This document shows, piece after piece, positions 2,975-23,163 of a stretch of DNA of 24,502 bases (within the stretch, counting starts at the first letter, position 1; every line of letters starts with the position of its first letter). This DNA is from a virus. A program made the translations under genes and the position numbers. Location: positions 1 through 24,502 of the IMG/VR virus record IMGVR_UViG_3300002131_000133; one strand, written 5' to 3'. The notes beneath the pieces are model-generated. The model had not been told where the DNA came from and did not search any database. It saw only the letters and a list, made by a program, of their open reading frames with translations.

Positions 2975-3658
2975 ATGGCAACCAATGTATACTTTAGCAA
3001 TTACGACAACTTTAATGAGCAGAATTTAATTGATGATCTCGTAATTGAATCTATTCAGATCTTCGGCCTCGATGTAACCTACATAAGCGGGTTGTTCAAT
3101 AACATCGATAGTATCTTTAACGAAGATGATACACCTCTTTACGATGAGATGTATTCTTTTGAAGTATATGTTAAGAACGTTGATGGCTTTGAAGGTGAAG
3201 GCGACTTCCTATCTAAGTTCGGCTTACAGATCAGAGATCAAGTTACGTTTACTGTTGCGATTAGAACATTCGAAAGATTTGTTACAAGAGTTAACCAAAC
3301 TAAAGTTCGCCCTAGAGAAAACGATATTATCTGGCTTCCTTTAAACCAGAAAATGTACAGAGTAACATACGTAGAACATGAAAGTGTTTTCTATCAGTCT
3401 GGCTCTCTACAAGTATACGATATCAAATGCGAATTAATGGAATATTCAAACGAAAGATTCGATACAGGCCGCTACGATATAGATCATTATTTCGATGATA
3501 TTAATTCTACTAGTACCTTTGTGACTACGCTTGAAGATGTGGCAAACAACGATGTAATGGCACAAAACCTTGAGTTCGAACAGTTAGCAGACGACATTTT
3601 AGACTTTAGCGAGTTCGATCCGTTCAGCGAAAACATTACTATTCAGGATAACAACTAA
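2975..3658 (+). CDS. 14: Neck protein gp14
   Basis: 227 residues, close to T4 gp14 (256). It acts with gp13 to complete the head and attach the tail. The N terminus MATNVYFSNYDNFNEQNLIDDL and the internal DGFEGEGDFLSKFGLQIRD followed by TFTVAIRTFE are hallmarks of gp14 in marine T4-likes. The last about 65 residues are acidic and rich in Asp/Phe. The ribosome site lies inside the end of gp13 and is weak, so translation is probably coupled. Its stop codon shares one base with the start of gp15 (TAATG). Confidence 0.88.
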   Translation: MATNVYFSNYDNFNEQNLIDDLVIESIQIFGLDVTYISGLFNNIDSIFNEDDTPLYDEMYSFEVYVKNVDGFEGEGDFLSKFGLQIRDQVTFTVAIRTFERFVTRVNQTKVRPRENDIIWLPLNQKMYRVTYVEHESVFYQSGSLQVYDIKCELMEYSNERFDTGRYDIDHYFDDINSTSTFVTTLEDVANNDVMAQNLEFEQLADDILDFSEFDPFSENITIQDNN

Positions 3659-5751
3659 TGGCAATTGCTAATTATTTCTATAACGAAACGACTAGAAGAT
3701 ATGTCGCGTTATTTGGCACTATTTTCAATCAACTCAAAATTGAAAGAAAAGATAATGCCGGTGTGTTAATACAGTCTATGATTGTACCGTTGTCCTATGC
3801 GCCATTCCAAAAAGTTCTTTCAAGATTAAATGAAGATCCTGACCTTATTAATAGCAGAAGACCTGCTATGACTTTGCCGCGCATGTCTTTTGAAATTACA
3901 AGCTTGTCGTATGATCCAGTGCGCAAAATTGCGTCAACACAAAAGATGCGCAAAGCATCAAAAGCAGAGTCAAACTCTTCTCGTAATTTTGTTTACGCTT
4001 CTGTGCCATACAATTTAGAATTCTCTTTGTATATTATGACAAAGTATTCAGAAGATGCAACAAAACTTATGGAACAAATCATTCCGTTCTTTACACCCGA
4101 TTGGACTGTTACTGCTAAAATGGTGCCAGACTTAGATCCTATTGATATTCCTATTATTTTAAATAGTGTTACTACAGAAGATCTTTACGAAGGTGATTAC
4201 GAGACACGACAAACTATTCTGTACACTCTTACTTTTACTTTAAAAGGTTGGTACTTCGGTCCTGAGAAAACAAAGAAAGTTATCAAGTTCATTGATGTCG
4301 ATATGTCTACCACCACTGCTTCTAATGCAACTCCAGAAGAAAGAGTTATAATTAAGCCAGGTCTTGATGGAAATGGCAATCCGCTTTACGAAGACGGCAT
4401 AACTGTTACGGCAACATCTTCTCTCTCAAACGGAGCTGTATCTGGAATTACTATTGTAAATGATGGTGAAAACTACGATCCAAACAATAGCATCCCAGTT
4501 ACTGTTGCTGCACCAAGTTCTTTAAACGCACAAATTACTCCCGTTATCACTAACACTTCTATAACTTCATTCAGTATTCCCGAAGCAGGTGGATACTATT
4601 CTGCTTCTCCTGCCATAGTAATTAGTGCTCCAGACTCTCCTGTAACCACCGCCAGTGGCACTGCAGTGCTCTCTGGCGACACCGTTGGATCTATTGGTAT
4701 TACTAACAGCGGTACATATTATAACTCAGCCACCGTCTCTATATCCGAGGCACCTGTAAAATCACAATATATTAAGTTTGGTGACGACGCGCTCTATCAT
4801 GCAAACCATACTGATGTAATTCTCGACCATGTAACAACATATAATTTAGTCACTGCTGGTACTGGTTTTGCTATAGAATTTTGGATTTACCCTGAAGAGT
4901 TCCACGCTAACGATTCTCATGTTCTAAATTTCGCCGGTACTACTATGAGAATTGAAATAGAAGCTTCAGGAGAACTTGTATATCGGCCAGTTCTTAATAG
5001 TGCACCGACAAGATCTACTCCAGAAGTCTTAGTTTTAAACCAATGGAATCATTGCCGCCTTGAACATTATGGTGCAACAGCAAGATGGTTAGTAAACGGT
5101 ACTGCAGATGCTGGGGCTGCTGCACCGCAGGGTTTCTTAATTGGCGGTGGTACAAGTGTGTATATTGGCGAACGTTCTACGAATGAAAGAAGCTTTTTAG
5201 GAGCTTTAGATAACTTGACTATTAGCCAAATCTCTGGATTAACTGCAGTTGGATCGTATGTAGTACCAACCACTGCCCAGACTGGTACATATTTTACATC
5301 TAATTTTGATAAAGATAATGCTACAGCACTTGTGACTGTGTCAGCCGGCGAAGTAACAGCAATTACTATGACAAATGGTGGTGCTAATTATGCCAACACG
5401 ACACCGGAAATCACTTTTTCGGCGCCTACCGGTGTCGCTGCAGATTATCAAGCAACTGCTACGGCAGTTCTAACTGACGGTTCTGTATCTTCAATTAGTA
5501 TAAATAACAATGGTAAGTTCTATATTTCAGCGAGTGCTACTATAGATACAGTTGTTGCTAACACTGCAACAGCTACTATCTCTATCGGTGTTGATGGCCA
5601 AGCTACGGGTATTACAGTAACCAATGCTGGCTCTGGCTATAGATCTCCACCGCTAGTTACTGTTGGTGACCCAGCAGCCATATCAGTAGCTTACCAACAA
5701 ATTGAGTTCGATGATGACTGGGGTATTATTACAATATTTGAGGATGTATAA
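3658..5751 (+). CDS. 15: Tail sheath stabiliser/completion protein gp15 with inserted LamG-like domain and beta repeats
   Basis: 697 residues, against about 270 for T4 gp15, the hexameric ring that caps the tail and meets the neck. Residues 1-216 form the recognisable gp15 core (YFYNETTRRYVALFGTIF, LNEDPDLINSRRPAMTLPRMSFE, TLTFTLKGWYFGP). The last about 20 residues (YQQIEFDDDWGIITIFED) look like the normal gp15 C-terminal tail. Between them lie three short beta repeats (259-366), a concanavalin/LamG-like domain (about 368-529: GFAIEFWIYPEEF, LNQWNHCRLEH, RSFLGALDNLTIS) and three more repeats (563-671). LamG folds bind glycans or proteins, so this gp15 probably displays a surface-binding domain at the neck; that is inference. 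It overlaps its neighbours by one base at each end. Confidence 0.85.
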   Translation: MAIANYFYNETTRRYVALFGTIFNQLKIERKDNAGVLIQSMIVPLSYAPFQKVLSRLNEDPDLINSRRPAMTLPRMSFEITSLSYDPVRKIASTQKMRKASKAESNSSRNFVYASVPYNLEFSLYIMTKYSEDATKLMEQIIPFFTPDWTVTAKMVPDLDPIDIPIILNSVTTEDLYEGDYETRQTILYTLTFTLKGWYFGPEKTKKVIKFIDVDMSTTTASNATPEERVIIKPGLDGNGNPLYEDGITVTATSSLSNGAVSGITIVNDGENYDPNNSIPVTVAAPSSLNAQITPVITNTSITSFSIPEAGGYYSASPAIVISAPDSPVTTASGTAVLSGDTVGSIGITNSGTYYNSATVSISEAPVKSQYIKFGDDALYHANHTDVILDHVTTYNLVTAGTGFAIEFWIYPEEFHANDSHVLNFAGTTMRIEIEASGELVYRPVLNSAPTRSTPEVLVLNQWNHCRLEHYGATARWLVNGTADAGAAAPQGFLIGGGTSVYIGERSTNERSFLGALDNLTISQISGLTAVGSYVVPTTAQTGTYFTSNFDKDNATALVTVSAGEVTAITMTNGGANYANTTPEITFSAPTGVAADYQATATAVLTDGSVSSISINNNGKFYISASATIDTVVANTATATISIGVDGQATGITVTNAGSGYRSPPLVTVGDPAAISVAYQQIEFDDDWGIITIFEDV
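4432..4755 (+). repeat. Three beta repeats in gp15, N-terminal to the LamG-like domain
   Basis: Residues 259-366 carry three degenerate repeats with the pattern (small)-I-x-I-x-N-x-G-x-x-Y-x(5,6)-P-x-V-x-I-S-A-P. Visible anchors are VNDGENYDP, PEAGGYYSASP and TNSGTYYNSA. Similar repeats are common in phage tail and fibre proteins. Confidence 0.65.
5344..5670 (+). repeat. Three beta repeats in gp15, C-terminal to the LamG-like domain
   Basis: Residues 563-671 hold three further copies of the same motif: TNGGANYANTTPEITFSAP, NNNGKFYISASATI and TNAGSGYRSPPLVTVGDP. Together with the first three they bracket the LamG-like domain, as if the whole repeat-LamG-repeat block entered gp15 as one unit. 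Confidence 0.65.
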
Positions 5752-10398: not shown

Positions 10399-11979
10399 GT
10401 GAAGCTTTTTGGATTTGAAATAAAAAGAGAAGGCGAAGAGACTGGGCATACTCCAGTCTCTTTTGCTGAACCTTTAAATGATGACGGTGCTATTACCGTC
10501 GGCAATGCTATGGGCGGGTTTTACAGTACTATTCTAGATTTAGAAGGTAATGCTAAAACTGAATCAGAGCTTGTATCAAAATACCGCGGTTTGGCGATGC
10601 AACCTGAAATTACTCAGGCTGTAGATGAAATCGTGAATGAAGCTATTAGCGTTGATACTGATGACAAAGTAGTAGAAATCATATTAGATGACACTGATTT
10701 GCCAGACAAAGTTAAAGATAAATTAGTTGAAGAGTTTGAAAACGTACTCTCGCTTTTAGATTTTAGTAATACTGCTTACGACACATTTAGCAAATTCTAT
10801 GTAGATGGCAGAGTTAATTACCATTGTATCATAGATCCTGAAGATATTAAAGCAGGCCTCCAAGAAGTACGTTATGTGGATCCACGCAAGCTTAAACTTA
10901 TCCGTGAAATAGATAAGAGTGGAAAAGACAAACATTCTGGCGCTCCAATTAAAAAAGTTAAATCTGAATACTACATGTATTCAGAAAACGGTTTTGGTAG
11001 TGATAAAGGTTCGTCTAGTAGTTCACAAGGAACACAAGGCTTTAAGATCGCAAAAGATTCTATTGCTCGTATTACATCCGGCGTAATGACTGAAAATAAC
11101 TCTCTTGTTCTTTCTCATCTTAACGCTGCAATTAAACCGATCAACCAGTTGAGGATGCTTGAAGATGCTGTTATCATTTATACTCTTACAAGAGCTCCTG
11201 AAAGACGAGTTTTCTATATTGACGTTGGTAACTTGCCTAAATCGAAGGCTGAACAGTATCTAAGAGATATGATGGTTCGTCATAAAAACAAGCTACAGTA
11301 TAATTCATCTACTGGTGAAATATCAGATGCTCGTAAAATGATGACTATGACTGAAGACTTGTGGTTCCCACGTCGTGGTGGTGAAAGAACTACTGAAGTT
11401 GATACGTTAGCTGGCGGCAATGCTGCTGGGTTAACAAGCGACGAGAACTTGCAGTACTTCCAACGCAAACTATATAAGTCGTTGAAGGTGCCTATTTCTC
11501 GCTTAGAACCAGAAACAATGGCGACATTTGGTCGTACATCTGAAATTACTCGTGATGAGCTTAAGTTTGGCAAGTTCATTCAAAGATTACGCAATCGTTT
11601 CTCATCGCTGTTTACACAGATTCTTGAAAAGCAGCTAGTCCTTAAAGGTATTATGACACCCGAAGAGTTCGCTGAAATCAAGAATGATTTAAGATACGAC
11701 TTTATTCAAGATAACTATTTTACAGAATTGAAAGAAGCTGAGATTACCCGTGAAAGACTTACTACTCTTCGTGAAGTTGAAGAACATATTGGTACATATT
11801 ATTCTAGAGAGTGGGTTCGTAAAAACGTTCTTCGTATGTCTGATGAAGATATTAAAGAAATGGCAAAAGAGATTGCTAAAGAAGCAGCAGAAGCGCCAGA
11901 AGAAGAGCCAACTGATGACGGTGATATGGAGAGTCAGAGTAACACAGATCAGAGAGATTCAAAAATCGTTAATGGATAA
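10399..11979 (+). CDS. 20: Portal vertex protein gp20
   Basis: 526 residues, almost identical in length to T4 gp20 (524). The dodecameric portal is the DNA entry/exit channel and the seed for prohead assembly. Supporting motifs are GGFYSTILDLEG, YRGLAMQPEITQAVDEIVNEAI, VNYHCIIDPED and RYVDPRKLKLIREI. Also RAPERRVFYIDVGNLPKSKA, WFPRRGGERTTEVDTLAGG and the helix ITRDELKFGKFIQRLRNRF. The gene starts with GTG at 10399, seven bases after GAGG (10388-10391); no upstream in-frame ATG is available. The C terminus is a long acidic tail (EAPEEEPTDDGD). The stop TAA lies within a late-promoter-like sequence. Confidence 0.95.
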   Translation: MKLFGFEIKREGEETGHTPVSFAEPLNDDGAITVGNAMGGFYSTILDLEGNAKTESELVSKYRGLAMQPEITQAVDEIVNEAISVDTDDKVVEIILDDTDLPDKVKDKLVEEFENVLSLLDFSNTAYDTFSKFYVDGRVNYHCIIDPEDIKAGLQEVRYVDPRKLKLIREIDKSGKDKHSGAPIKKVKSEYYMYSENGFGSDKGSSSSSQGTQGFKIAKDSIARITSGVMTENNSLVLSHLNAAIKPINQLRMLEDAVIIYTLTRAPERRVFYIDVGNLPKSKAEQYLRDMMVRHKNKLQYNSSTGEISDARKMMTMTEDLWFPRRGGERTTEVDTLAGGNAAGLTSDENLQYFQRKLYKSLKVPISRLEPETMATFGRTSEITRDELKFGKFIQRLRNRFSSLFTQILEKQLVLKGIMTPEEFAEIKNDLRYDFIQDNYFTELKEAEITRERLTTLREVEEHIGTYYSREWVRKNVLRMSDEDIKEMAKEIAKEAAEAPEEEPTDDGDMESQSNTDQRDSKIVNG

Positions 11980-12015: not shown

Positions 12016-13182
12016 ATGAAGTCGTTTAGACAAGTTATTGCGGAAGTTGCTGAGCCAAATTCGCGGGCAGAAGAAGAGCAAGCATTTAAGGATATGCATA
12101 CTTACGAAGTGATCGGTCACCCAGTTGCTTTAGATCACCAGTTCACTGGCGAGATTGCTAAGCCGAAAGCGGCTCGCATTGCAGACCAAGAAGGTGATGC
12201 TAATTACGATACTGCATATGCTTATGGTATGAATGCAATGTATGATAAAGCGTTCGCTATTGAACAAGTTAATGAAAATGCAGCTGAAGAAATTCCAATG
12301 ATGAGTCAGCAACTTGACTTTATCACAATGGCTGCTAAAGCTATTAAAGCTTCTTTAAGCAAGGGTGGCGATCCTGAAGAATGGTATCAAAACAAACTTG
12401 CTACTGCACATGAGGCAATCAAAACACTTCATGCTAATATTGCTAGTGACGTAACTGAAAGCGAAATGGCTAAAAGAGACGCGCTCGATAAAGCTGCTGC
12501 TCCTTCAAAAGAAGGCAAGAAAGCAGTATCTTTGAAAAAAGCTCCTTGGGATAAAACAGAAGAACTTTCTCCTAAGCAAAAGAAAATTGATCATAACAAA
12601 AATGGCAAAATTGATGGCCACGACTTAGCTATGATTAGAGCTAAAAAGAACGAAGAAGCTGAACTTGATGAAGTATCACAAGAAACTCTTAAAGATTACC
12701 ATGCAAAAGCAGCTGTTGATCTGAGAAATAAAAGAGAAAAACTTAGAAACGGCACCCTTACATCTAAAGATCTTAAAGGTGGTCAAAATAGAGTAAAAGG
12801 TCTTAATAGAGCTGCTGACAAAATGGAAGAAGTAGTTGCTGAAACTACCAACTCTGCTCTTAAAAAACCAATTACTATGACTGGCGCCGATGGCAAAACT
12901 CGTACTGTTATGAAATCTACAAAATCGAACTATACTGATGAGCGCGGTCAAGATAAGATTACAACAAAAGAATCAGTCGATCGGATTGATGAAGCGTTTT
13001 CTGCAGGTATTGTAAAGTTTAAAGATAATACTTCTGCCATTATTAAAAAAGAAGACGCGGACATTCTTAACAAATTGTTCAAGAAAATGTCATCAGCTAG
13101 TGTAAAGAAAATGACTGAAACTGCTATGAAAAACAAAGCTGGTATGGCTGAAATTCTGGAATTTGCTAGAGAAGCTCTATAA
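12016..13182 (+). CDS. Probable prohead core/internal virion protein with EF-hand-like loop
   Basis: 388 residues, not assigned with certainty. In T4 the small core genes 67 and 68 occupy this position between portal and protease. Residues 95-145 form a helical region (SQQLDFITMAAKAIKASL, GGDPEEWYQNKLA) seen in uncharacterised virion proteins of marine T4-likes, as I recall. Residues 192-203 are an EF-hand/dockerin-type loop with D192, N194, N196, D200 and D203. The protein is very rich in Lys, Glu and Ala. RIDE326-A327 fits the (I/L)xE-A/G cleavage rule of gp21-type proteases, so it may be packaged and processed. Ribosome site CAGGAG. Its stop overlaps the next start by one base. Confidence 0.65.
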   Translation: MKSFRQVIAEVAEPNSRAEEEQAFKDMHTYEVIGHPVALDHQFTGEIAKPKAARIADQEGDANYDTAYAYGMNAMYDKAFAIEQVNENAAEEIPMMSQQLDFITMAAKAIKASLSKGGDPEEWYQNKLATAHEAIKTLHANIASDVTESEMAKRDALDKAAAPSKEGKKAVSLKKAPWDKTEELSPKQKKIDHNKNGKIDGHDLAMIRAKKNEEAELDEVSQETLKDYHAKAAVDLRNKREKLRNGTLTSKDLKGGQNRVKGLNRAADKMEEVVAETTNSALKKPITMTGADGKTRTVMKSTKSNYTDERGQDKITTKESVDRIDEAFSAGIVKFKDNTSAIIKKEDADILNKLFKKMSSASVKKMTETAMKNKAGMAEILEFAREAL

Positions 13183-15383
13183 TGGCTTGGGCGGATGTTC
13201 TAGGATCTGAAGGTGGGGTAGCTAATACTTGCATCTGGGAATATGATAATGCAGCAACAGCAGCAGACACATATTTAGACGCTAATGGAACAACCGCTTC
13301 TGGCATCAGAACGTTTACACCTACTGGTGGTAATGCACAGTATACTTATGTTAAGGTCAGAAAAAAAGGTGAGACAGCATTACGTGGCGAGATCAGTAAA
13401 TCATATTGGGATTTTAGATCGTCGGTATCTGTGTATGCAATACTTACTCTTGAGCCAAGTTTCATTCTCGACTTCAAGGCGAGTGTCTTTAACAAAAATG
13501 GTGTTTCCTCTACCTTCGGTGCATCTATAACTCACGCAGCTACAACCAATGCAACTATGGTCGATAGTGATGGCTTGCTGAAGTGGCGTCCACATAACTT
13601 GGTTCCCTACAGCGAAGACCAGACGCAGTGGAACTTGTATTTAGCAACAGCCACACGTACAGCAGACCGCATTACCTTTACAACAGCCACCACTGATAGA
13701 CGTGCAGCAACTTTTAGGGCTGCGACACAGACAGTCAAGGGTTTAGACTATAAGATAGTAGCAGATTTCACCGTTGATGACGGCCTGCCTGTAATTGCCT
13801 TGGGCGCGTGGGCCTCCGCTACGAGGTTTAGTTGGGCAGCTTATGATACGACTTTATTAACGTCCTCCACCTACACAGTCAGCGACCCTACATCAGCCAT
13901 GACTGTAGATAGTTGCGTGAACATATCTGGTAACATTTGGCGGCTTACAGTCGGCTACACAGCTACCACAACAGGTAATTCCGCACCAGCAAGTATTATT
14001 GTCCATCTCGGTGCAGCAGGTCAGACAGCACAGCAGCTACGCACAGCTGGTGTGGGTACTGGTTCTTGCGGTGTTACTAACGTACACACCTACCAAAGTG
14101 ACCTCGGTGGCATGGTGAACAACCCTGATGCCTCTACAGGCTTTGAGTCATACGTTCCAACGACAACTACTCCTGTTTACCTTTCTCGTCGTGGTCATCA
14201 CGTCTACAATGGCTCTGCTTGGGTTAACGAAGGCATCCTCCACGAGAGTGAAGCTCGGACTAACTTGATGACTAGCTCTGGTGATTTGGATGGCACTGGT
14301 TGGGCTGGTACCATGACCAGAGGTGCAGTAACCTCAGGTTCACCCTTCGGTACTTATCAGACGATTTCACCTGTAAGTAGTGGTGGAGACCTTGGCACCG
14401 CGCAAAGAAACCAAGTCGGTAAAACCCTTACATTAGGTGCAACCTATGTTGGTTGGGCGTTGGTTAAGTATTCTGCTGGTTCTGGCTGGTTTGATATTAA
14501 TATGTACGACACGGGCGACACTTCTAAACGTGCTTACTTTGACGTGCAGAATGGCGCTGTAGGCACTAAGGATGCCGCTAACATAGACCACGGGATGGTA
14601 GACTATGGTGATGGCTGGTGGCTATGTTGGGCTTCGGCTGATGCAGCTTCTACCTCTGGTGGTTCGAGGTATGAGGTTCCCAACGGTGACGGTGTTGTGA
14701 CTTGCACCGCAACAGATGTTATCTTAATAGCTGGCACACAGTATGAACTAGGCTCAACTCCATCAAGTTACATCCCAACAACAACAGCTACAGCTACTCG
14801 TGCTGCTGAGACACTAACAGTCCCTGCGGCTAACCTGCCGTATAACAGCACTAACGTGTCTATCCAGATGGATGGCAAGATGACTTATGCTGATAATGGG
14901 CTTACTCCAGGCGTCGGTGGGGGGGAGGTATCTTTTCTTCTTTGGAAATCTGGCAATATAGACTACATCAGCACTGGTATTGACACTGGTGGTAATAGGT
15001 CAGGCCAATACGATGCCTCGCAAAGAACCGCGACCAGTGGAGGTCAGCAGTTATCACAAGGCTCGACTACCGACTACTCTCCTAACACCAACGTACCCTT
15101 CAACCTCGCATCAATTCACAGCTCTACGTTCATTAAAGGCGCAACCGAGGGTACACTCACAACATCTTTCTACCCAACTCGTCAAGGCCTCCCTGACCTA
15201 TCATCTACTAACTTAGACCTTGGACAACTTTTCATGGGTACAATCGGACAGTTTCGTATGTGGTCTGACGACTTAGGTGACGCTGGTATTACGGAAGCAA
15301 CTTTACCATCAACTGAACCATCTCTGAGCCTGACCTTCGATGGCAGTGAGAACAGCTTTATCATACTAGATTGGAGTGAGTAA
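13182..15383 (+). CDS. Large head-spike/fibre-like protein with two carbohydrate-binding-like modules
   Basis: 733 residues. Residues 1-135 are a separate N-terminal domain, perhaps the capsid anchor. Two related modules follow: 137-334, starting NLVPYSEDQTQWN and ending YVPTTTTPVYLSR, and 349-545, starting LHESEARTNLM and ending GSTPSSYIPTTTATATRAAE. These start and end phrases are typical of phage and prophage head-spike-fibre or CBM-like jelly rolls. Residues 546-706 look LamG-like (VSIQMDGKMTY, GTIGQFRMWSDDL). GC is visibly higher than in the flanking genes from about codon 135 on. It is joined to the preceding gene by TAATG, so it is translated as part of the prohead operon. Role as a surface adhesin is inferred. 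Confidence 0.65.
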   Translation: MAWADVLGSEGGVANTCIWEYDNAATAADTYLDANGTTASGIRTFTPTGGNAQYTYVKVRKKGETALRGEISKSYWDFRSSVSVYAILTLEPSFILDFKASVFNKNGVSSTFGASITHAATTNATMVDSDGLLKWRPHNLVPYSEDQTQWNLYLATATRTADRITFTTATTDRRAATFRAATQTVKGLDYKIVADFTVDDGLPVIALGAWASATRFSWAAYDTTLLTSSTYTVSDPTSAMTVDSCVNISGNIWRLTVGYTATTTGNSAPASIIVHLGAAGQTAQQLRTAGVGTGSCGVTNVHTYQSDLGGMVNNPDASTGFESYVPTTTTPVYLSRRGHHVYNGSAWVNEGILHESEARTNLMTSSGDLDGTGWAGTMTRGAVTSGSPFGTYQTISPVSSGGDLGTAQRNQVGKTLTLGATYVGWALVKYSAGSGWFDINMYDTGDTSKRAYFDVQNGAVGTKDAANIDHGMVDYGDGWWLCWASADAASTSGGSRYEVPNGDGVVTCTATDVILIAGTQYELGSTPSSYIPTTTATATRAAETLTVPAANLPYNSTNVSIQMDGKMTYADNGLTPGVGGGEVSFLLWKSGNIDYISTGIDTGGNRSGQYDASQRTATSGGQQLSQGSTTDYSPNTNVPFNLASIHSSTFIKGATEGTLTTSFYPTRQGLPDLSSTNLDLGQLFMGTIGQFRMWSDDLGDAGITEATLPSTEPSLSLTFDGSENSFIILDWSE
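14787..14804 (+). repeat. 18-bp direct repeat, copy 1
   Basis: GCTACAGCTACTCGTGCT encodes the end of a spike module (ATATRA). An identical copy lies at 16511-16528 in the next gene in the matching protein position, indicating common descent of the two modules. Confidence 0.7.
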
Positions 15384-15385
15384 TC

Positions 15386-17005
15386 ATGGGTACTAAACAA
15401 TACGACAGTGCAACTGATCTCATTACGTTCTCCCGTGCAAGCGGGGGGACAGCACTAAGCAAGATTAGCTATGGCAACAATTCGGTTACGAATGGCACGT
15501 TTGATACTGATTTGTCTGGTTGGACCCAAAATGGTGCTGAGTGGGTTTACAGCAATGGCAAAGCGGCACTTCTAGCTAATGCCATAGCTAATCAAAGCCT
15601 TTCATCTACTAACGCTTATGTAAAGGCAGGAAAAACATATAGAGTTAGATTTGATGCTTCAACATCTGTTGGTACTCCAGTGAACACATACATGAAAGTT
15701 CGGATTAAGAGTAATGATAACGGAACAGGTGTAATGATCTACAATCAAAACTATATACTCACTGGCTCAACCGAGATCTTTCTATCTCCAACAGCAAACG
15801 GCTATGTGAGCTTTGATAACGTAGTCTCTAGTAGCTTTGACAAGTTTATTGACAACGTATCCATTGAAGAAGTCCTCTTCGGCCAATCTGATGGCACACT
15901 ACAAGTGTTTAACCACGGTAACAACATCCCTCGCATTGAGTACGATGCTACTGGTGCAGTCAAAGGTTTACTGATTGAGGAAGCTAGGACTAACATTGCG
16001 AAGTATTCTGAGGATTTCACGCAGGGGTACTGGAAGGCATATAATGCAGTAACAACAACAGGTAATGTAGCAGTTGCACCTGATGGCAATTTAACAGCCG
16101 ACAGAATTGCCGCTAAGAATGCGACAACAAACAATGGAGCTTTTACGGATGACGATGTGCCTACTGGTGGTTGCGTTAGTGTCTTCGCTAAAGCTGACAC
16201 AGTTGATTGGCTTGGTTTCGGACAAGCTGGAGGTTGCTGGGCGTACTTTGACCTTGCAAATGGCGTTACAGGGAACAAGTCCACTACTGTTGGTTACACC
16301 AGCATAACCGCTTACCCTAATGGTTGGTATCTTTGCCAAGCATGGGGCATAACTATTAGCTGGCATCGTGTGTTGTTCTCTCCAAAGCCAACAGAGGGCA
16401 ATGGCGACCCTTGGAGTAATGTCACTAATGCGATTGGAGATAGTGTGTTCTTATGGGGCGCACAAATAGAAGCTGGCGCTTTCCCTTCGTCCTACATCCC
16501 GACGACAGGCGCTACAGCTACTCGTGCTATGGACCTCGCCGAAATCCCAACGAGTGCCTTTGGTTATAACAACGATAAGGGTAGTATCGCTGTGGAGTTC
16601 AAGAGTAATAAACCTAGTAGTCTGGATTATGGTGCTTTCGTTTTAAGTGATGGCACTCCTTACAACAGAATAATACACTTCACCTCTGCCACAGCCCACC
16701 GTGCTGCTAGTATCAATTCAGGCAACTTAGATGTAGATATAGGCGCTGGCAGTAGGGGCGCACCTTCTGAACTTGTTAAGTTTGCTATTGGATTTAGCGA
16801 CAACAACTTCGCAGCTTCTCTTAATGGCGCAACAGCAGTCACTGATACATCAGTAACCATTCCGTCTGGGTTATCTAAGTTGGCGCTTGGCTATTTTTAC
16901 GACAACTTTCAAGGTAACTTCGCTGCAGTGAATGGGCACATCAAGTCCATACAATACTATCCACGTCAACTAACTAATACACAATTACAGGAGCTAACAA
17001 CATGA
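15386..17005 (+). CDS. Head-spike/fibre-like protein with jelly-roll and CBM-like modules
   Basis: 539 residues. The N terminus has LITFSRASGGTAL, the standard opening of phage head-spike-fibre proteins. A CBM4/9-like jelly roll follows (about 30-160: VTNGTFDTDLSGWTQNG, then VKAGKTYRVRFDAS and DNVSIEEV). Next is a linker (IEYDATGAVKGLLIEEARTN) and a second module at 205-380 with YSEDFTQGYW, NGWYLCQAWG, WGAQIEAGAFPSSYIPTT and ATATRAMD. The C terminus (395-539) is LamG-like and ends GHIKSIQYYPRQLTNTQLQEL. The second module is clearly related to those of the preceding gene. It starts two bases after that gene's stop, with GGAG nine bases upstream. Probably binds host or environmental glycans; this is inference from the folds. 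Confidence 0.68.
   Translation: MGTKQYDSATDLITFSRASGGTALSKISYGNNSVTNGTFDTDLSGWTQNGAEWVYSNGKAALLANAIANQSLSSTNAYVKAGKTYRVRFDASTSVGTPVNTYMKVRIKSNDNGTGVMIYNQNYILTGSTEIFLSPTANGYVSFDNVVSSSFDKFIDNVSIEEVLFGQSDGTLQVFNHGNNIPRIEYDATGAVKGLLIEEARTNIAKYSEDFTQGYWKAYNAVTTTGNVAVAPDGNLTADRIAAKNATTNNGAFTDDDVPTGGCVSVFAKADTVDWLGFGQAGGCWAYFDLANGVTGNKSTTVGYTSITAYPNGWYLCQAWGITISWHRVLFSPKPTEGNGDPWSNVTNAIGDSVFLWGAQIEAGAFPSSYIPTTGATATRAMDLAEIPTSAFGYNNDKGSIAVEFKSNKPSSLDYGAFVLSDGTPYNRIIHFTSATAHRAASINSGNLDVDIGAGSRGAPSELVKFAIGFSDNNFAASLNGATAVTDTSVTIPSGLSKLALGYFYDNFQGNFAAVNGHIKSIQYYPRQLTNTQLQELTT
16511..16528 (+). repeat. 18-bp direct repeat, copy 2
   Basis: Identical to 14787-14804. It encodes ATATRA at the end of the second module of the spike protein. 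Confidence 0.7.
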
Positions 17006-17409
17006 CCGACGAACTAATCCTTGAAGATGGTGTAGTAACTCCAAAGAACGACTTCTATCTCAAGCTAGATGCTGAGGCGTCTATGCCATCAGTTCTCTCT
17101 GCCTTCTACAAGCAGGACTACAGCACAATCGTAGACCCTGAGACAGGCGTAGAGAGTACACAGATAGAGGGTGAGCCTTACTTTGTCAGTAGTACATCTA
17201 ACTATGCTATTGATGTTGTGGGAACACTAAGCGAACCTACAGGTAATACACTGACAGATGATAATGACATGGAGTATCCTGAGATACAAGCCTTAGATGG
17301 TTGGCACGTGAATATCCGTTTAGTGGGTGATGAAGTTAGAGCAGCAGTAGAAGCACTAGATACGTCACATGGTGTGACACCTTCTGCCCCACAGAGAATT
17401 TGGTTATAA
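17002..17409 (+). CDS. Small conserved companion of the spike proteins
   Basis: 135 residues of unknown function. It overlaps the preceding gene by four bases (ATGA), so it is translationally coupled to the spike protein and probably acts with it, for example as an adaptor or assembly factor. The sequence is acidic, with DFYLKLDAEASMPSVLSAFY near the start, YFVSSTSNYAIDVVG in the middle and GWHVNIRLVGDEVRAAVEAL near the end, ending APQRIWL. I recall similar small proteins next to head-spike proteins in other phages but cannot name a family. Its TAA stop lies within a TATAAATA late promoter. Confidence 0.6.
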   Translation: MTDELILEDGVVTPKNDFYLKLDAEASMPSVLSAFYKQDYSTIVDPETGVESTQIEGEPYFVSSTSNYAIDVVGTLSEPTGNTLTDDNDMEYPEIQALDGWHVNIRLVGDEVRAAVEALDTSHGVTPSAPQRIWL

Positions 17410-17412
17410 ATA
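17405..17412 (+). promoter_or_regulatory. T4-type late promoter, first of three before gp21
   Basis: Perfect TATAAATA that contains the stop codon of the preceding gene (17407-17409). It is followed immediately by a perfect palindrome and could serve the 20-codon ORF at 17473 and gp21. Confidence 0.6.
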
Positions 17413-17442: not shown

Positions 17443-17450
17443 TATAAATA
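17443..17450 (+). promoter_or_regulatory. T4-type late promoter, second of three before gp21
   Basis: Perfect TATAAATA, 22 bp before the ATG of the 20-codon ORF at 17473, the same spacing as before other late genes here. Confidence 0.65.
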
Positions 17451-17472
17451 ATAGCAAATATGAGGAAATATT

Positions 17473-17535
17473 ATGAACCCTATTGAAACATTAGTTCAAC
17501 AATCATTTGATAAAGATTTTAATTCTGCGAATTAA
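17473..17535 (+). CDS. 20-codon ORF, possible remnant of a prohead core gene
   Basis: Reads MNPIETLVQQSFDKDFNSAN and then stops. It has a good ribosome site (TGAGGAAA, about eight bases upstream) and its own late promoter at 17443. The sequence resembles the N terminus of small prohead core proteins (gp67/gp68-like) of T4-like phages, which normally continue for 70-140 residues and sit at this place just before gp21. The downstream bases 17536-17608 are AT-rich and contain no clear continuation, though a shifted frame reads a short ELNKNYYDARV. It may therefore be a truncated gene or a real micropeptide. Confidence 0.4.
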   Translation: MNPIETLVQQSFDKDFNSAN

Positions 17536-17573
17536 ACAAAAACTATTACGACGCCAGAGTATAACAAAATAAT

Positions 17574-17581
17574 TATAAATA
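17574..17581 (+). promoter_or_regulatory. T4-type late promoter, third of three, directly before gp21
   Basis: Perfect TATAAATA 27 bp before the gp21 start, which has the ribosome site GAGGCGAT. Confidence 0.7.
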
Positions 17582-17608
17582 CAGTTAGAATAACATAGAG
17601 GCGATAAA

Positions 17609-18301
17609 ATGAAACTCATTACCGAAGTTGTAGAAGATTGCAGCGTTGCAACGGAGATCAATGAAGAAACGGGCGTTAAGTCTTACTTCATCGAAGGCAT
17701 CTTTATGCAAGGTGACATCAAAAATCGCAACGGTCGCATTTATCCATCTGCGGTTCTTGAAAAAGAAATGAATCGCTATAATAAAGATTTTATTACTACT
17801 AAGAGAGCTCTTGGTGAACTAGGTCACCCAGACGGTCCAAGCATTAACGGCGATAGAGTTTCACACCTTATCACTGAAATGAAAAAAGACGGATCAAATT
17901 TTATTGGTAAAGCAAAAATTCTCGGTACTCCAATGGGCAACATTGTTAAGACACTTATGGACGAAGGTGTTCTTATTGGCGTATCAACTAGAGGATTGGG
18001 TTCTGTAAAGCAAACAAAAGAAGGTATCATGGAAGTTCAAGACGATTTCCATCTAGCTACTGTTGATATTGTAACAGACCCATCAGGCCCTAATTGCTTC
18101 GTAAATGGCATTATGGAAAACACTGAATTCTTTTATGACATTGCTAGAGGCAACTGGTTACCGACTAACGTAACAGTTGAAGAAGCAATTGAAGAAATTC
18201 AAGAAGAAATTGAAAAAGAAGTTAGACGGGTCGTTCGTCGAGTTGATGAGAGCACAGCTGTACGTATGTTTGAACGCTTTGTAAAATCACTTAGAAATTA
18301 A
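17609..18301 (+). CDS. 21: Prohead maturation protease gp21
   Basis: 230 residues (T4 gp21 is 212). It is a serine protease of the herpesvirus-assemblin type that digests the scaffold and trims the capsid proteins. The catalytic His is probably H73 in RALGELGHPDGP and the catalytic Ser S126 in GVLIGVSTRGLGS; D153 in ATVDIVTDPSGP is conserved. NRNGRIYPSAVLEKEM near the N terminus is another signature. The C-terminal 50 residues are a charged helix (EEAIEEIQEEIEKEVRRVVRR). It lies before the scaffold and major capsid genes, the universal T4 order. Confidence 0.93.
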   Translation: MKLITEVVEDCSVATEINEETGVKSYFIEGIFMQGDIKNRNGRIYPSAVLEKEMNRYNKDFITTKRALGELGHPDGPSINGDRVSHLITEMKKDGSNFIGKAKILGTPMGNIVKTLMDEGVLIGVSTRGLGSVKQTKEGIMEVQDDFHLATVDIVTDPSGPNCFVNGIMENTEFFYDIARGNWLPTNVTVEEAIEEIQEEIEKEVRRVVRRVDESTAVRMFERFVKSLRN

Positions 18302-22087: not shown

Positions 22088-22516
22088 TTATGTGAGTTTG
22101 CCTTCTTCGCGAAGTTTAGCTCTGATTTTAGTTGCGCTTATGTTGTGAACTTCTTCACCGAGATCGTGTTGTGTAAACGTGTACCCAACTCCTCGGCCGT
22201 AGCTAATGTCGACAATATTAGGTACACACACGATAATATATTCGTAACCGTTATGATAACCTTCTTTTGAAAGACCTTCGCTGATACCTTCAATCACTTG
22301 AATTTCTCCAAAGGGGTTGTCACTTTGCTCTACTGTTCTACCAGCCCCTGCGTCTTTTCCTATAATACCACCAACATCTCTGACCATTATACAGACCTGT
22401 CCAGTGACGGCCAGAGCCTTTTTAAACAAGGCTGTATGACCAGTATGCCAAGGTTGCCAACGCCCTAGCATCTGAGCTGTGGGCTTCTGATAGTCAAACA
22501 AAGCCTTATCGTACAT
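22088..22516 (-). CDS. HxGH nucleotidyltransferase (cytidylyl/adenylyltransferase family)
   Basis: 142 residues. GRWQPWHTGHTALFKKAL at 18-35 contains the HxGH nucleotide-binding motif (H24, H27). ISATKIR at 126-132 is the second signature of the NMNAT/cytidylyltransferase superfamily. Such enzymes join a nucleotide to a phosphorylated small molecule with release of pyrophosphate. The substrate cannot be told; the NAD precursor NMN is one option. It overlaps the DUF2061 gene by 11 bases, and that gene overlaps a kinase gene, so the three are probably made together. It is not closely similar to the nucleotidyltransferase at the left edge. Confidence 0.8.
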   Translation of the reverse strand: MYDKALFDYQKPTAQMLGRWQPWHTGHTALFKKALAVTGQVCIMVRDVGGIIGKDAGAGRTVEQSDNPFGEIQVIEGISEGLSKEGYHNGYEYIIVCVPNIVDISYGRGVGYTFTQHDLGEEVHNISATKIRAKLREEGKLT

Positions 22517-22733
22517 CTCTTTTTCCTTTCAATCCAATCTTAATATGCTGATACCACACACGTTCGTGAGCATAATATAAACCAAATTTAATAACTAAAT
22601 CTGCTAAAAATACTGCTCCAATTGCTTTCGGTGGTAAACCAAAATACCAAGCAATTAATACTGTGGTTATACTAGCTATTATACGCCAAGTTACGGCTTT
22701 TGTCAAATGACGAATTTTACTTACTTCACTCAT
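22506..22733 (-). CDS. DUF2061 small membrane protein
   Basis: 75 residues with two predicted membrane segments (about 14-33, AVTWRIIASITTVLIAWYFG, and about 38-56, IGAVFLADLVIKFGLYY). KAVTWRIIAS, then DLVIKFGLYYAHERVWY, is the signature of DUF2061 (PF09834). This family is often found near adenylylsulfate-kinase-like proteins in marine bacteria and phages, as I recall. Its start overlaps the kinase stop by eight bases and its end overlaps the nucleotidyltransferase by 11. That indicates tight co-translation of a kinase, a membrane protein and a transferase. Confidence 0.8.
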   Translation of the reverse strand: MSEVSKIRHLTKAVTWRIIASITTVLIAWYFGLPPKAIGAVFLADLVIKFGLYYAHERVWYQHIKIGLKGKRDVR

Positions 22734-23163
22734 TATGTTTTTTACTTTGCTTTAGTTGGAACGCTCTAATCACTTCAACAAGTTGTGCATGAGTATCGGT
22801 AAACCATTCACTCACGTGATAATCAGCATTAATAGGTGATACAAACATTGCATTTGTATCTGCAAACCGACCTTCTTTAATCGTGTCCATCCATATAGTA
22901 AAGTCTGGATCAAAAGCAACACGAGCTTCTTCTGTAGGACACACAAAGTCTGCTACTGCAGTCTTACCAGCTCGGACGACACCATCACTTAAGTGTCGCA
23001 TCCTATTTGCTTGTCGCATTCGTCCTTCTAGACTGAAATCCCAATCGTCGTAGTGAGTGCGAACTTCATCAGCATTAATATGTACAGCATCAATTAGCTT
23101 TGCAAAAGGGGCTGCCAAGGTAGTCTTTCCACTACCCGGCAATCCAAAGATCAGAATTTTCAT
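22726..23163 (-). CDS. Adenylylsulfate-kinase-like P-loop kinase
   Basis: 145 residues. Walker A GLPGSGKT at 7-14, then INADEVR at 28-34, DWDFSLEGR at 39-47, LSDGVVRAGKTAVADFVCPT at 57-76 and FTIWMDTIKEGRF at 87-99. This layout matches the APS kinase (CysC) family, which phosphorylates adenosine 5'-phosphosulfate. The protein is shorter than bacterial CysC (about 200), so another substrate is quite possible. It starts one base after the stop of the DUF932 gene and has no separate promoter that I can see. Confidence 0.75.
   Translation of the reverse strand: MKILIFGLPGSGKTTLAAPFAKLIDAVHINADEVRTHYDDWDFSLEGRMRQANRMRHLSDGVVRAGKTAVADFVCPTEEARVAFDPDFTIWMDTIKEGRFADTNAMFVSPINADYHVSEWFTDTHAQLVEVIRAFQLKQSKKHNE

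Follow-up and report, generated by a model that had tools for sequence, protein, structure and literature searches.

The fibre of the gene transfer agent (GTA) RcGTA is held at the capsid vertex by a small jellyroll base pentamer and binds the cell capsule (PMC7296036, PMC10218006), the pentamer holding an Ile/Leu-Gly repeat peptide of the fibre (PMC7296036). The capsid fibre Hoc of phage T4 is composed of Ig-like domains and a C-terminal capsid-binding domain (PMC10385173). Here we describe a locus in the virus record IMGVR_UViG_3300002131_000133 (positions 1 to 24,502; this 24.5-kb stretch is called the window below), which carries the T4-like structural operon of a marine phage. Between a core-type gene that follows gp20 and the protease gene gp21, this operon contains three open reading frames (ORFs) of 733, 539 and 135 amino acids, which a first-pass annotation had read as a spike or glycan-binding cassette gained horizontally. 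That gain, of a 4.1-kb block of spike genes from other phages, is strongly supported by a relative with an empty site, by remnants at the junctions, by a contrast in synonymous divergence (dS) and by relatives of the fibres in unrelated phages. The first gene is a composite: its fibre part came in with the block, as had been proposed for the whole gene, and residues 1-78 represent a native protein to which that part has been joined in frame. We coined the name MAW for this small unnamed protein, which is encoded by a free gene in most relatives.

The closest relatives found, L154 and L155, whose gp20, gp21 and gp23 share 92%, 93% and 93% amino acid identity with those of the window, contain none of the cassette genes. 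At the position where ORF733 starts, they have an intact 80-aa gene (MAWADVLGSE...GELNKNYYDAKI), followed directly by gp21. DNA identity with L154 extends to position 13399 of the window and resumes at 17529 (86% from there onwards), and identity with L169, a distant T4-like lineage seen in three contigs and counted here as one, begins at 13385 and ends at 17453. The alignment of these ends places a 4,140-bp block inside the last codons of the native MAW gene, with GCGA at both edges: on the left, the native ...CGTGGCGA is followed by GATCAGTAAATC, the latter common to L169, and on the right ...TCTGCGA leads into ATTAAACAAAAACTATTACGACGCC, with which the native gene ends. At the level of the DNA, therefore, the block is inserted and native MAW runs in frame into the incoming fibre. 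The break falls within a conserved GE(L/I)SK motif that is also found in the donor-like L169 gene, which fits a recombination at homologous anchor codons; the repeated GCGA would be equally compatible with a trace of such a recombination or with a short target duplication. A transposon-type insertion was also considered and rejected, as no inverted repeats were found at the ends of the insert and no mobile-element gene, transposase included, in the cassette. Within the tract preceding the right junction, a short open stretch (MNPIETLVQQSFDKDFNSAN) may be the beginning of a gp67-like gene that arrived together with the cassette; searches with this tract gave no convincing homologue beyond copies of the window phage, and its donor was not found.

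L169 holds the nearest T4-like copy of the cassette found, located at the equivalent site, after its own diverged MAW domain. The backbone genes of the two phages are far apart (gp20 46% amino acid identity, dS 3.2; gp21 53%, dS saturated; gp23 67%, dS 1.2), whereas ORF539 is 70% identical with a dS of 0.32 and ORF135 79% identical with a dS of 0.63, all dS and dN/dS values being approximate Nei-Gojobori counts. DNA identity with L169 reaches 88% over 15121-16503. The cassette is itself a mosaic, in which the 5' parts of ORF135 resemble L091 and its 3' part, together with the trailer, resembles L169 and L114.

The composition of the block had been an original argument for transfer, and the hand-counted 60-base rows behind it were roughly right (55% G+C at 13981, 53% at 14281, 53% at 14641, 50% at 16201, 33% at 12721 and 38% at 16561), apart from the row at 12481, which has 41.7% and not 45%. 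Whole-gene G+C is 48.6% in the fibre part of ORF733, 44.8% in ORF539 and 44.6% in ORF135, most genes of the window having 36-41%; because gp23 (46%) and gp19 (44%) are also rich, bulk G+C alone is weak evidence and was rejected as sole proof of transfer. G+C at third codon positions (GC3) is a better marker: the 68 native codons of ORF733 that precede the junction have 0.25 and the remainder of the gene jumps to 0.43, with 0.39 in ORF539 and 0.38 in ORF135, against 0.26-0.30 in gp20, the core-type gene, gp21 and gp22. Elsewhere in the window it is 0.33 in gp23, 0.43 in gp19 and 0.39 in the gene at 2975. The outcome that would have refuted the original reading, all close relatives carrying these genes, was not seen: the close relatives lack them.

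The domains of the cassette bear out its description as spike-like with a carbohydrate-binding module. Both long ORFs exceed the curated cut-off (36 bits) of the NCBIfam family NF048003 (GTA_spike_fiber, the GTA head-spike-fibre domain), ORF539 with residues 196-381 (E 7e-38, 131 bits), and residues 31-122 of ORF539 match CBM_4_9 above cut-off (E 4e-6). In addition, residues 181-396 of ORF539 match the RcGTA head spike fibre Rcc01080 (PDB 6tb9) at E 1e-21, and the protein matches two baseplate proteins, gp45 of 8env among them, at about 1e-7. The profile of phrog_5939, annotated as phage tail protein, is matched by ORF733 at 4e-21 and by ORF539 at 7e-60. Profile and structure searches with ORF135 gave no relative of assigned family or fold. 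In 33 of 36 distinct cases, a homologue of ORF135 shares exactly 4 bases with the fibre gene before it, and the gene is under purifying constraint (dN/dS 0.17-0.25). Together these point to a helper produced in concert with the fibre, so that ORF135 is a probable assembly helper or accessory. Within the window, the T4-type late promoter core TATAAATA is found nine times and always on the + strand, the expected number being 2.0 (nine were reached in 0 of 100 shuffles); this excess, and the common strand of cassette and head genes, make it likely that they are expressed late together.

The same distal module was found in 45 distinct fibre genes of marine phages, where it follows several unrelated N-termini (at least five anchors), often directly preceded by the entry motif S-YA(I/V)..(F/L)(E/D)P.(L/F)V.DF. 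One anchor class, with 12 distinct members, starts with MQIGLSLSLTAQLRL or a similar alternating hydrophobic peptide, like the RcGTA fibre, and a small base-like gene lies near 11 of them, the twelfth (L104) having almost no upstream sequence available. A profile built from five base proteins has matches beside cassettes in 13 other loci. The one base tested, that of L103, matches RcGTA Rcc01079 at E 9e-6, in the gene order portal, base, fibre, ORF135 homologue, scaffold and major capsid protein. By analogy, head spikes would be a normal use of this module, and its other anchors may be of tail type. L103, L105, L113, L125, L128 and other contigs with an RcGTA-like head-spike base and an alternating-hydrophobic fibre are podovirus-like and marine; PHROGs labels the head-spike base 'tail fiber protein' (phrog_12296), perhaps wrongly.

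The native half of the fusion belongs to a widespread family. A profile alignment of 52 sequences recovers ORF733 at E 1e-36 as a full-length MAW match, including the GE(L/I)SK end, and the MAW part has a dN/dS of 0.17 against L154. In contigs L154-L156, L158, L159 and L161-L163, the match is confined to the first 79-83 residues of ORF733, and tblastn against Pelagibacter phage Mosig aligns residues 1-77 only, with the small hypothetical protein Mosig_00041 encoded between gp20 and gp21 (45% identity), which, unlike ORF733, is a free gene with no fusion partner. Mosig was the sole match in a search of phage records for both MAW subtypes and ORF135. Free genes of 73-92 aa account for 57 of 60 distinct sampled sequences, mostly in the gp20-gp21 interval. 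In the other three, MAW is fused to long C-terminal parts: the window phage, L169 (839 aa) and L013/L261 (about 510 aa). A junction-motif search for further fusions returned just the two known lineages. Each searched record with a match has one copy. Among 90 copies placed by their flanking genes, 58 are free with gp20 upstream and gp21 downstream, 11 have gp21 only and 1 has gp20 only within the available sequence, and 14 are free with neither, some beside neck or terminase genes and others elsewhere in T4-like genomes; these loci were the best-matching ones (the best 80 per search), which biases the fractions. To expect only small core genes between gp20 and gp21 was too simple: at nearly all of the marine T4-like loci examined, gp21 is immediately preceded by one or two additional small genes. 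AlphaFold2 predicts residues 1-79 with confidence (mean pLDDT 92.9) as a small beta fold with a short helix at the end; the model had no significant match in the PDB or among viral models, and MAW as a jellyroll base of GTA type was rejected on that account.

The third MAW fusion, a 509-aa protein of L013 (13178-14707, - strand), lies after gp23 on the opposite strand with a TATAAATA core close upstream, and its C-terminal part differs from the window cassette. MAW genes outside the head operon are also present in L255, L256 and L261; a T4-type late promoter core lies 30-37 nt ahead of them, as would fit genes that are expressed late and connected with the virion.

As a whole, the explanation that we consider somewhat more likely than not is that a mobile adhesin cassette was inserted in a native late gene and that the fused product is a virion spike, most likely on the head. 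A marine cassette composed of the distal part of one fibre, a second fibre and the coupled small gene moved from another phage into the 3' end of a native single-domain gene, in such a way that the reading frame now runs from the native domain into the first fibre. The insertion, the in-frame fusion, the foreign origin and the domain identities are established by the sequences, as is the presence of the promoter cores. MAW would then be the anchor in the virion and the GTA-spike-type domains would be displayed outward; ORF733 and ORF539, produced late with the head proteins, would form a spike able to bind host surface polysaccharide, putatively capsular on the strength of domain homology, as a reversible first contact ahead of tail engagement, and ORF135 would help to fold or assemble the fibres. 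The head is favoured as the anchoring place because of the position of the gene and the homology to RcGTA head-spike fibres. A more specific proposal is put forward tentatively, at slightly less than an even chance: in a T4-like phage, a single event would have converted a small head protein into a head spike of the GTA style, a mobile spike fibre becoming covalently joined to a native domain that is bound to the capsid and has no fold match in the PDB. At least two T4-like lineages have the fusion at the equivalent site. Several observations weigh against the preferred explanation: the spike-fibre domain is found also in tail fibres (RcapMu) and baseplate proteins (8env gp45), a few free MAW genes sit outside the head operon, a capsid- or tail-binding role is unreadable from the fold of MAW, which has no match in the PDB or among viral models, and the dN/dS of ORF539 against L169 is 0.79, a figure that comes partly from a swapped C-terminal segment and that fails to prove constraint. 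The capsid-surface adhesin of the first-pass annotation is supported by its domains as an adhesin, and its place on the capsid surface is an extrapolation.

The insertion and fusion could have occurred as described and MAW be a neck, tail or baseplate component, which would make the product an additional tail- or neck-borne adhesin. PHROGs annotates the fibre domain as a tail protein, most other anchors of the module are of unknown or tail type, and in L251 the free MAW gene follows neck/gp15-like genes; however, the majority of free MAW genes are surrounded by head genes, in the gp20-gp21 interval, and in phages of the L103 type the cassette follows a GTA-like head-spike base, and we regard this alternative as rather unlikely, if the most serious. 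A recent insertion that is selectively neutral or transient, with the cassette absent from virions, would agree with the high dN/dS of ORF539 and with a fusion found in one population only (window, L089, L110 and L173), but seems improbable given that all three ORFs are intact, that late promoter cores are present, that ORF135 is constrained across its homologues and that a phage as distant as L169 retains the cassette at the equivalent site. Finally, the shift in composition at the junction might be expected if the head operon of one phage had been joined in assembly to the fibre operon of another; this has been largely refuted and is very improbable, since the arrangement recurs at 99-100% identity in contigs of other assemblies (L089 and L110 over the left junction, L173 over the right one), so that it is not an assembly error, and since the native 3' end is retained and L169 has an equivalent architecture.

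Features of the head operon and of the inserted cassette (window coordinates)
Feature	Position	Strand	Basis or remark
gp20 portal protein	10399..11979	+	PF07230 E 1.3e-158; phrog_213; upstream landmark
388-aa prohead-core-type gene (MKSF... N-terminus)	12016..13182	+	equivalent position in L154, L159, L161, L009
ORF733 (733 aa), native MAW anchor and fibre, in-frame fusion	13182..15383	+	NF048003; phrog_5939
Native MAW part of ORF733 (codons 1-69)	13182..13390	+	82% aa identity to free 80-aa L154 gene; GC3 0.25
Left junction GCGA	13387..13390	+	matches L154 before, L169 after (alignment of ends)
Fibre entry motif SVYAILTLEPSFILDF	13428..13475	+	found after various anchors in other phages
GTA head-spike-fibre domain of ORF733	14250..14807	+	NF048003, residues 357-542, E 5e-30, 105 bits
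ORF539 (539 aa), second fibre gene	15386..17005	+	CBM_4_9; NF048003; Rcc01080 match; phrog_5939
ORF135 (135 aa), small gene coupled to fibre gene	17002..17409	+	4-base overlap in homologues; phrog_18574
Late promoter core TATAAATA, cassette end	17405..17412	+	T4-type core scan
Second late promoter core TATAAATA	17443..17450	+	tract common with L169 at DNA level to about 17453
Tract with short open stretch MNPIETLVQQSFDKDFNSAN	17454..17526	+	source phage of tract not found
Right junction, second GCGA	17527..17530	+	alignment of ends; insert 4,140 bp
Orphaned MAW 3' end (..ELNKNYYDARV stop) and native gp21 leader	17529..17608	+	86% DNA identity to L154; TATAAATA at 17574-17581
gp21 prohead protease	17609..18301	+	PF03420 E 8e-37; downstream landmark

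The window has the gene order of a T4-like structural operon (gp18-gp19-gp20-core-gp21-gp22-gp23): gp13/gp14-like connectors, gp15, terminase genes, gp18, gp19, gp20, the 388-aa core-type gene, ORF733, ORF539, ORF135, gp21, gp22 and gp23. The three cassette genes were confirmed as ORFs between the core-type gene and gp21, with the junctions given originally: a 1-base overlap with the upstream ORF (ending at 13182), a 2-base gap and a 4-base overlap. The core-type gene itself is variable in length across L154, L159, L161 and L009, with conserved N- and C-termini. The tail sheath stabiliser gp15 (3658-5751, + strand; residues 6-227) is extended at its C-terminus by a Laminin_G_3 lectin domain (390-523, E 2.5e-14), followed by a repeat domain (550-680); the full 692-residue form is common to the near relatives G002 and G015 (52-53%), the match in more distant T4-like records being limited to a core of about 250 residues, and these comparisons point to an adhesin-like fusion of older date within this clade. 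A 110-aa protein encoded upstream of the neck genes (1885-2217, + strand) has a weak match to the BppU N-terminal domain, just under the cut-off. On the - strand, the ORFs at 22088-22516 and 22726-23163, with a 75-aa ORF between them, each correspond to one half of a single kinase-type family (phrog_10255, positions 122-228 and 2-129), as read from the sequence a split or interrupted gene.

The locus documents cleanly how a phage gained a new surface adhesin through its fusion with a small structural protein, since an unoccupied site, the two junctions, the remnant of the interrupted gene and relatives resembling the donor could all be compared. It links T4-like phages to GTA head-spike fibres through one distal module carried on at least five different anchors, and it gives a testable function to MAW, usually encoded beside gp21 in marine T4-like phages, whose binding place in the virion would be permissive for the display of a 650-residue fibre.

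With the RcGTA pair Rcc01080/Rcc01079 (PDB 6tb9), the window shares the fibre domain, present in ORF733 and ORF539 and distal to a small separate structural domain; it differs in that the base of RcGTA is a free jellyroll, whereas here the small domain is covalently fused and of a different fold. The alternating Ile/Leu N-terminus of the RcGTA-type anchor peptide is absent (ORF733 starts with the MAW domain and ORF539 with MGTKQYDSATDLITFSRASGG), and the profile of the five base proteins found no Rcc01079-like gene among the window ORFs, so that the spike, which would work like a GTA head spike or a captured tail-fibre tip, is not a member of the RcGTA two-part system. If the head position is right, it would resemble T4 Hoc as an outward adhesin on a T4-like head, but its anchor is N-terminal and there is no sequence relation, Pfam and PHROGs giving no Hoc or Ig family match for ORF733, ORF539 or ORF135. 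Close to it as well is the module exchange of tail fibres (phrog_5939/phrog_1419), in which the conserved N-terminal anchor is kept and the distal receptor-binding part is swapped across unrelated phages, likewise with a small coupled downstream gene. In contrast, the gene that received the module here was small and free, stood among T4-like head genes and encoded no fibre beforehand. The exchange of fibre tips is well known; what is new at this locus is a fibre that was not replaced but created, by fusion to a small free protein of the gp20-gp21 interval.

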